Source of the DNA: Lachnospiraceae bacterium 10-1
GTDB lineage: Bacteria; Bacillota; Clostridia; Lachnospirales; Lachnospiraceae
Assembly (NCBI GenBank): GCA_000403495.2
Contig: KE159810.1
Span: 62,001-126,000, forward strand
Reading direction: 5' to 3'
DNA: 64,000 nucleotides
The position numbers and the translations under genes are program-made. Below, piece after piece: positions 10,206-62,190 of this stretch; position 1 is the first letter of the stretch; each line of letters opens with the position of its first letter. A model generated the notes under the pieces. The model did no database searches. It had not been told where the DNA came from and saw only the letters and a program-made list of their open reading frames with translations.

Positions 10206-10306
10206 TTTATTCCCGCGAGCAATGAGTCAGGCGGCCGTACTTACACGGACAGTTGACGAATGCCGCGAGGTGTAATGCCCCATAGCCTGCTGCGGGGTAT
10301 TTCACT
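10206..10306 (-). repeat. Intergenic hairpin element, full-length short form
   Basis: Read on the minus strand, it starts with the pyrE stop (TGAAATACCCCGC) and ends CTCGCGGGAATAAA. Inside are the two 15-base blocks CGCGGCATTCGTCAA (10253-10267) and TGACTCATTGCTCGC (10215-10229), separated by 23 bases that can fold weakly (CCGT...ACGG). The same two blocks bracket a much larger hairpin set at 61799-61937. The pattern suggests a dispersed repeat family. Confidence 0.7.
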
Positions 10307-10976
10307 TTGCTCCATACTGCTCATAATATACATCAATTGCCTTTTTAAGCGTATCATCAATGTAAATCTGTCCCTTATAGGGCTTATTATAAAGATATTC
10401 CACAACCTCCTGCATATTCACGATAGCGTTGGCATCAAAACCGTATTTTTCCTTTATTTCTGCAAGGGCGCTTCTTTCTCCCTGCCCTTTCTCCATACGG
10501 TTTAAGGATACCATAAGTCCCTTAATCTCCACGTTGGCCTGCGCTTTAATGATCGGATAAGTTTCTTCTATTGATTTGCCGGAAGTGGTAACATCTTCAA
10601 TAATTACTACTCTGTCTCCGTCTTTTAACCTGCTGCCCAATAAAATACCGGTATCTCCGTGATCTTTTACTTCCTTGCGGTTAGAGCAATATCGAATTTC
10701 TTTTCCGTACAGCTCGCTGATTGCCATAGTTGCTGCTACCGATAAGGGAATTCCTTTATAGGCAGGTCCAAAGAGCACATCAAAATCAAGGCCATAGTTA
10801 TCATGGATTGCCTTTGCATAGTATTCGCCCAGTCTGCGAAGCTGTGTGCCGGTTACATATCCCCCCGCATTCATAAAAAAGGGAGATTTTCTTCCGCTCT
10901 TCAATGTAAATTCGCCAAATTTAAGTACCTGGCTGTCCACCATAAACTCAATAAACTCCTGCTTGTACTGTTCCAT
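10302..10976 (-). CDS. pyrE: Orotate phosphoribosyltransferase
   Basis: PyrE converts orotate and PRPP to orotidine 5'-phosphate. The 224-residue protein has the PRPP-binding loop DRVVIIEDVTTSGKSIEET, the orotate/phosphate segment FGPAYKGIPLSVA, and KSGRKSPFFMNAGGY near the N-terminus. The stop codon lies within the 10.2-kb repeat. A purine-rich GAGAGGAA site precedes the ATG. The next pyrimidine gene, pyrF, is about 11 kb away. Confidence 0.96.
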   Translation of the reverse strand: MEQYKQEFIEFMVDSQVLKFGEFTLKSGRKSPFFMNAGGYVTGTQLRRLGEYYAKAIHDNYGLDFDVLFGPAYKGIPLSVAATMAISELYGKEIRYCSNRKEVKDHGDTGILLGSRLKDGDRVVIIEDVTTSGKSIEETYPIIKAQANVEIKGLMVSLNRMEKGQGERSALAEIKEKYGFDANAIVNMQEVVEYLYNKPYKGQIYIDDTLKKAIDVYYEQYGAK

Positions 10977-61695: not shown

Positions 61696-61760
61696 ATTCT
61701 AAAAGATAATTGCGTAGCAATTAAAGTATGCGTAATAGTAAAATGACCGGTAAGCACAGG

Positions 61761-61937
61761 AAATATAAATACGCATAACTGCGCATTTATATTTCTGCCG
61801 CGGCATTCGTCAAATGTGGATGCTTGCGCATCCACTTCGCAGCGTAAGCGCTCATGTAATTGCATGCGAGCATGCATTACATGGTCCCTTACGCTGCTGC
61901 GCGTATGCAGAGCATACGCGCTTGACTCATTGCTCGC
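61761..61937 (+). repeat. Long hairpin-rich intergenic element
   Basis: The region starts with a 14-base inverted repeat (AAATATAAATACGC / GCGCATTTATATTT at 61761-61794). The element proper runs between CGCGGCATTCGTCAA (61799-61813) and TGACTCATTGCTCGC (61923-61937). Three stems lie inside: GTGGATGC / GCATCCAC; GCAGCGTAAG / CTTACGCTGC, enclosing CATGTAAT...; and CGCGTATGC / GCATACGCG. The ends match the element at 10.2 kb. Confidence 0.75.
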
Positions 61938-61983: not shown

Positions 61984-62190
61984 TTATTTGCTTTCTACAC
62001 CGTACTTCTTGTTAAACTTATCAATACGTCCATCAGCTCTTGCAGCTTTCTGCTGGCCTGTGTAGAATGAATGGCATTTAGAACAAACTTCAACGTGAAT
62101 ATCTTTTTTAGTTGAACCTGTTACAAATGTATTACCACAGTTGCAAGTTACAGTTGCCTGATAAAACTCAGGATGAATTCCTTCTTTCAT
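61984..62190 (-). CDS. rpmE: 50S ribosomal protein L31
   Basis: This 68-residue protein is L31. It begins [20 protein letters not shown] and has the zinc-binding Cys set (CNCG and [10 protein letters not shown]), making it the zinc-carrying form. It leads its own promoter (62256-62284). Confidence 0.97.

Follow-up and report, generated by a model that had tools for sequence, protein, structure and literature searches.

A 95-bp segment at the pyrE stop codon and a longer hairpin array behind rpmE, both in the 64,000-nucleotide stretch of the Lachnospiraceae bacterium 10-1 genome analyzed here (the window), are two copies of an element that is highly probably a non-autonomous IS200/IS605-type (HUH, single-tyrosine) mobile element, i.e., a PATE or MITE. 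The pyrE copy (copy 1) would be a recent insertion and the rpmE copy (copy 2) an older one, and the enzyme that moves them is one that we infer. The elements are about 90-125 bp long, carry no genes, and have one hairpin per end. They form a family of real mobile elements that is of a known kind and undescribed in the searched sources; neither the 15-mer nor a description of such an element family was found in the searched open-access literature.

Two copies with conserved arms in the window

The initial annotation had noted two 15-bp blocks recurring at 10.2 and 61.8 kb in opposite orientation, separated by 23 and 109 bases and lying 3' of genes, and each of these observations was reproduced. 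All four blocks are exact, they recur jointly and in the same order in both copies, and the three stems described between the blocks of copy 2 are seen in the fold (Table 1). By simple 4^15 arithmetic, any one 15-mer would be expected to recur exactly ~1e-4 times within 64 kb. The conserved parts of copy 1 extend beyond the 15-mers to the left hairpin (~10268-10306) and to the end at which GGG abuts AATAAA (10206-10214).

Table 1 Features of the two element copies and their neighboring genes (window positions).
Feature	Position	Strand	Evidence
Block CGCGGCATTCGTCAA, exact, copies 1 and 2	10253..10267; 61799..61813	-; +	
Block TGACTCATTGCTCGC, exact, copies 1 and 2	10215..10229; 61923..61937	-; +	
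Complete 95-bp element of copy 1, at the pyrE stop codon	10212..10306	-	Empty site in the sister species (G018); model R1, 79.8 bits
Hexamer targeted by copy 1, AATAAA (plus strand, TTTATT), already in the empty site, unduplicated	10206..10211	-	
Copy 1 core hairpin: conserved arms (the two blocks), variable inner hairpin	10215..10267	-	
Copy 1 outer hairpin, (A)GTGAAATACCCCGC..GGGGCATTACAC, counterpart of the family's terminal hairpin	10271..10306	-	Fold
Copy 2 outer hairpin, AT-rich; boundary uncertain, without the canonical AGTCAA end	61760..61795	+	Fold
Copy 2 core: conserved arms with 109 nt between; common to G018 at the same site	61799..61937	+	
Copy 2 stem A, GTGGATGC/GCATCCAC, counterpart of the usual inner hairpin	61816..61835	+	Fold
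Copy 2 stem B, extra; 4 of 9 pairs differ on both sides from G018, 0 broken	61839..61897	+	
Copy 2 stem C, extra, GCGCGTATGC/GCATACGCGC	61899..61921	+	Fold
pyrE; stop codon now within the copy 1 element	10302..10976	-	
rpmE (ribosomal protein L31); copy 2 just past the rpmE terminator	61984..62190	-	

Copy 2 is common to this genome and G018 and is absent from the other genus members whose rpmE site was read. Because its outer hairpin is AT-rich, no TTTGACT end is recognizable, and model R1 gives it only 14 bits, its membership of the family is based on the exactness of both arms, the order in which they occur, and the inner stem A. The two genomes do not differ on the terminator side or, outside the loop, in stem C, and the paired changes in stem B could stem from a single templated event or from strong constraint. 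Downstream of rpmE, genus mates (L250, L246, L256, and L263) carry another short repeat, ATAAGGATGRCTCGCGAAGCGTGGCATCC (or AAGCTGACTCGCGGAGCG), singly or in tandem.

The notion of a modular repeat that gains or loses hairpins was borne out: the interior keeps its complementarity while differing in length and sequence, two stems are added in copy 2, and some cores are in tandem. The tandem arrays (L274, 1404-1542; L021, about 1500) have a ~69-bp period, with no usual outer hairpin between the cores.

Precise insertion next to a preexisting hexamer

At the pyrE locus, this genome reads GGAGCAA, the 95 bp, and then AATAAATTCTG, whereas the sister species has the empty site GGAGCAAAATAAATTCTG; the other pyrE loci retrieved from the genus are likewise without the insert. 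The gene ends in GCA AAG TGA with the insert and in GCA AAA TAA without it, so that pyrE encodes the same end here and in G018. Copy 1 inserted at the stop codon of pyrE, probably recently.

The same was seen in the congener richest in copies (G027), where three sites (s25, s3, and s10) have precise empty counterparts in G031/G032/G025/G009, and a fourth (s4) is more diverged. The joined flanks match intact empty sites in relatives, e.g., TTAATTAA joined directly to AATGAATTTTG, with 97% identity over 139 bp. The empty sites already carry TTTATT or TTCATT, and the hexamer is not duplicated. Among 195 copies, a count that takes in the near-identical G027 copies, the right hexamer was AATAAA in 128 and AATCAA in 20; viewed on the transposing strand, TTTATT and TTGATT dominate as the 5' neighbor. 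Information falls to ~0 past the hexamer, and the left flank is near random (maximum 0.24 bits), so there is no target duplication. Judged from the orthologous empty sites, insertion is precise, duplicates no target bases, and lies directly 5' of AATAAA/AATGAA.

Complete elements fold with a subterminal hairpin at each end. The lack of duplication, the position 3' of TTTATT/TTGATT on one strand, and the hairpin ends together make up an IS200/IS605 pattern. As to guide sequences complementary to the cleavage sites, a GTCAA at the 5' base of the outer-end (RE) hairpin could pair with the terminal TTGAC, and the LE equivalent is ambiguous by sequence. Two of the three sets of loci had the GC-skew bias expected for insertion into the lagging-strand template (78:39, p=0.0004; 27:11, p=0.014); it was seen neither in the G027 set nor with an ORF-direction proxy, and the loci are non-independent.

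These observations can be combined into the following model. The transposing strand runs from TTTATT into CCCGCGAGC, the core hairpin, the terminal hairpin, and the final TTTGACT. A Y1 transposase related to ISDra2 TnpA would act in trans on single-stranded DNA, excise the element as a single-strand circle, and insert it 3' of a TTKATT-like site. Copy 2 would be an older, diverged insertion behind rpmE, whose interior acquired extra hairpins.

A large family within Lachnospiraceae

The initial annotation held that absence of the 15-mers from the rest of the genome or from relatives would refute its idea. In the 4.57-Mb genome the exact pair occurs at these two places only; every other near-match differs at 2 or more bases, and reversed control patterns gave such matches about as often. 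Relatives carry many copies, so the idea was not refuted. An early reading of the pair as a two-copy curiosity, based on the exact 15-mer search of this genome, was overturned by a covariance model and a pattern with Y=C/T, which revealed a large family. Its members commonly read AGTCAAATACCCCGC, a loop, GCGGGGTATTTGACCCTCGCGGCATTCGYCAA, the inner hairpin, and TTGRCTCATTGCTCGCGGG, with AATAAA coming next.

With Y/R allowed at the covarying position (Y/R pattern), at least 120 genome-contig stretches matched, and those listed are mostly labeled as Lachnospiraceae or its genera. Model R1 matched 70 of 150 sampled Lachnospiraceae genera (one genome per genus, E<=1e-3), several of them with at least 34 matches each. 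Within the genus of strain 10-1, 29 of 37 genomes matched, with 0 to 59 copies per genome (maximum in G027). Only four genomes of a class-wide sample (n = 196) matched, two of them non-Lachnospiraceae, and the family is almost absent beyond Lachnospiraceae. One viral contig (IMG/VR) matched the Y/R pattern, the phage search returned a single partial match of 51 bases, and no carriage was found in the plasmids searched.

Compensatory change in the core hairpin

The Y and R positions covary (67 C-G, 14 T-A, and 5 others). In an alignment of 38 core hairpins, 94% of cells were paired, and 85 cells had changed on both sides compared with 25 in shuffles, none of 500 shuffles reaching 85. The invariance of the arms is partly a product of the search pattern. 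Compensatory change in the core hairpin is strong. In a further reading, the core end would be part of a separate transposition system restricted to Lachnospiraceae, and its hairpin arms would be renewed by templated rewriting, with both arms changing together in single events. We consider this unlikely; if true, the element diversifies its terminal structure while its folding is kept.

A recent burst and a candidate transposase

Of the 59 copies in G027, about 24 are near-identical and mostly 124 bp long, and several congeners have 0-1 copies, indicating that the burst is recent. Together with the precise empty sites and the target specificity, it upholds the earlier suggestion of mobility. 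Two mini-elements in G027 (L204, reverse complement 1222-1289; L195, reverse complement about 1460-1526) have the same core end and another outer hairpin, AAACCAGC..AGCTGGTT, as if IS200-type elements had exchanged ends.

The G027 genome has a frameshifted Y1 gene, 3' of which lies ATACCCCGCAGCTTGCTGCGTTACAAGTTTGATGCCCCGTCAGCTTGCTGCGGGGTATTTGACT, identical at 64/64 bp to the outer end (RE) of several burst copies. An intact candidate Y1 protein (154 aa) is encoded at L312/L415. The G027 match could be a truncated element that happens to adjoin the gene. This is the less likely reading: in other genomes a homologous CGGGGTAGTTGATT-ending hairpin lies 3' of the genes related to this Y1, and no such hairpin is seen at the remaining Y1 loci compared (about 30% identity). 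The RE motif accompanies nearly all Y1 loci of this linked subfamily (it is missing in the truncated L203) and none of the more distant Y1 loci compared. The best PDB match of the subfamily is 2xm3 (2e-21), which we take to be ISDra2 TnpA, and it also matches NCBIfam IS200/IS605. On these sequence grounds, a Y1 enzyme of IS200/IS605 type seems the most likely mover. Other IS200-type Y1 elements of the genus were rejected as the source, as their end hairpins differ.

The LE of the linked Y1 elements differs from the core end of the element. At the loci examined, the conserved core end lies beside no Y1 gene apart from two exceptions, i.e., one unrelated RAYT-like neighbor and one burst copy inserted into an IS200-type Y1 gene (L371 2032-2084, G027 C71). 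Since this conserved other end was found beside no transposase, we infer the mover only. Few genomes of the family have the linked subfamily (2 of 299 at a strict cut-off of 1e-30), and many element-carrying genomes lack it, including that of strain 10-1, a PF01797 search of which gave no match. Both the orphan core end and these genomes would suit mobilization by another enzyme that shares the target rule by chance, be it a different HUH protein, a recombinase of folded single-stranded DNA, or one that reverse-transcribes the element into its target. The 64/64 identity of the outer end behind the G027 Y1 gene and the tie between the end motif and one Y1 subfamily make such an enzyme improbable.

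REPINs, moved by RAYTs (REP-associated tyrosine transposases), are miniature palindromic mobile DNA dependent on a Y1-type enzyme. A REP/REPIN-like repeat moved by a RAYT, not by an IS200-type TnpA, would explain why the element is palindromic, intergenic, and of high and variable copy number, and one copy does lie ~200 bp upstream of a RAYT-like Y1 gene in G178. However, a different palindrome, AAAAGGGACTGACCCCTTTT, flanks the RAYT-like genes of G112 and G178; the PF01797 search of the genus returned nothing as long as the RAYT-like genes; and the consensus has no GTAG tag, CGTC occurring only in the minority Y=T form and within the stem. We regard this reading as very unlikely and rejected a RAYT as the mover, as the RAYT-like genes carry their own palindrome. 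Those genes (L322 and L324, in G112 and G178; ~260 aa) adjoin the AAAAGGGACTGACCCCTTTT palindromes, which are a separate REP-like family of Lachnospiraceae, and one RAYT-like Y1 gene that was scanned fell just under the NCBIfam REP_Tyr_transpos cut-off. By eye, none of the integron attC boxes GTTRRRY / RYYYAAC is present in the conserved arms.

The proposal of a regulatory RNA family was not supported. A vertically inherited cis-acting RNA (terminator, riboregulator, or mRNA stabilizer) would account for the strong hairpins, the compensatory changes, and the copies behind or within terminators, but as the primary explanation it is contradicted by the clean empty sites, and with near-identical dispersed copies in G027, unrelated neighbor genes, all relative gene orientations, and 0 to 59 copies within one genus, it is extremely unlikely. 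Neither the window nor the element loci had an Rfam match above the gathering score (a mir-599 match in L105 was far below its own), and no consistent 5'-UTR or 3'-terminator position was seen with crude gene calling. The same crude caller placed 37 of 131 copies within ORFs; many of these ORFs were short and are likely to be spurious. Secondary effects on transcripts are possible. In L056, L152, L016, and L023, copies apparently lie inside an intrinsic terminator (CCTTGC..GATA, the element, then ATCAGCAAGGTTTTT), at the same site in several genomes.

Significance and relation to known systems

Lachnospiraceae are an abundant group of gut bacteria, and the IS200/IS605-like elements described here supply their genomes with small insertions that are both recent and precise. 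Copies at stop codons, terminators, and leaders could pass for regulatory RNAs. Because copy number ranges from 0 to 59 within a single genus, empty sites are clean, and there is a candidate transposase, the elements offer a convenient natural system for studying how IS200/IS605 derivatives multiply and how hairpins change sequence while remaining complementary.

Pneumococcal BOX elements have conserved ends and a variable number of inner modules, and the present element resembles them in this layout, in a different host. The likeness to REPIN/RAYT systems (PMC3116915) is that of miniature palindromic mobile DNA dependent on a Y1-type enzyme; unlike them, our element has no GTAG tag, and the RAYT genes seen go with a different palindrome. 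ISDra2 of Deinococcus, which inserts 3' of TTGAT (PMC2806898), is similar in its target and its subterminal hairpin ends, and its transposase is presumably the best PDB match of the linked Y1 subfamily; the element here has no genes and uses TTTATT/TTGATT as target. Closest in kind are the PATEs and MITEs of IS200/IS605, e.g., the PATE-like element of Halanaerobium (PMC7290912), which are also short, retain only hairpin ends, are expected to cause no duplication, and presumably depend on TnpA in trans. Unlike these, the present family has a core end for which no matching IS end was found and an inner hairpin of high variability, and, as a single family, it occurs in about half of the genera sampled from a bacterial family.
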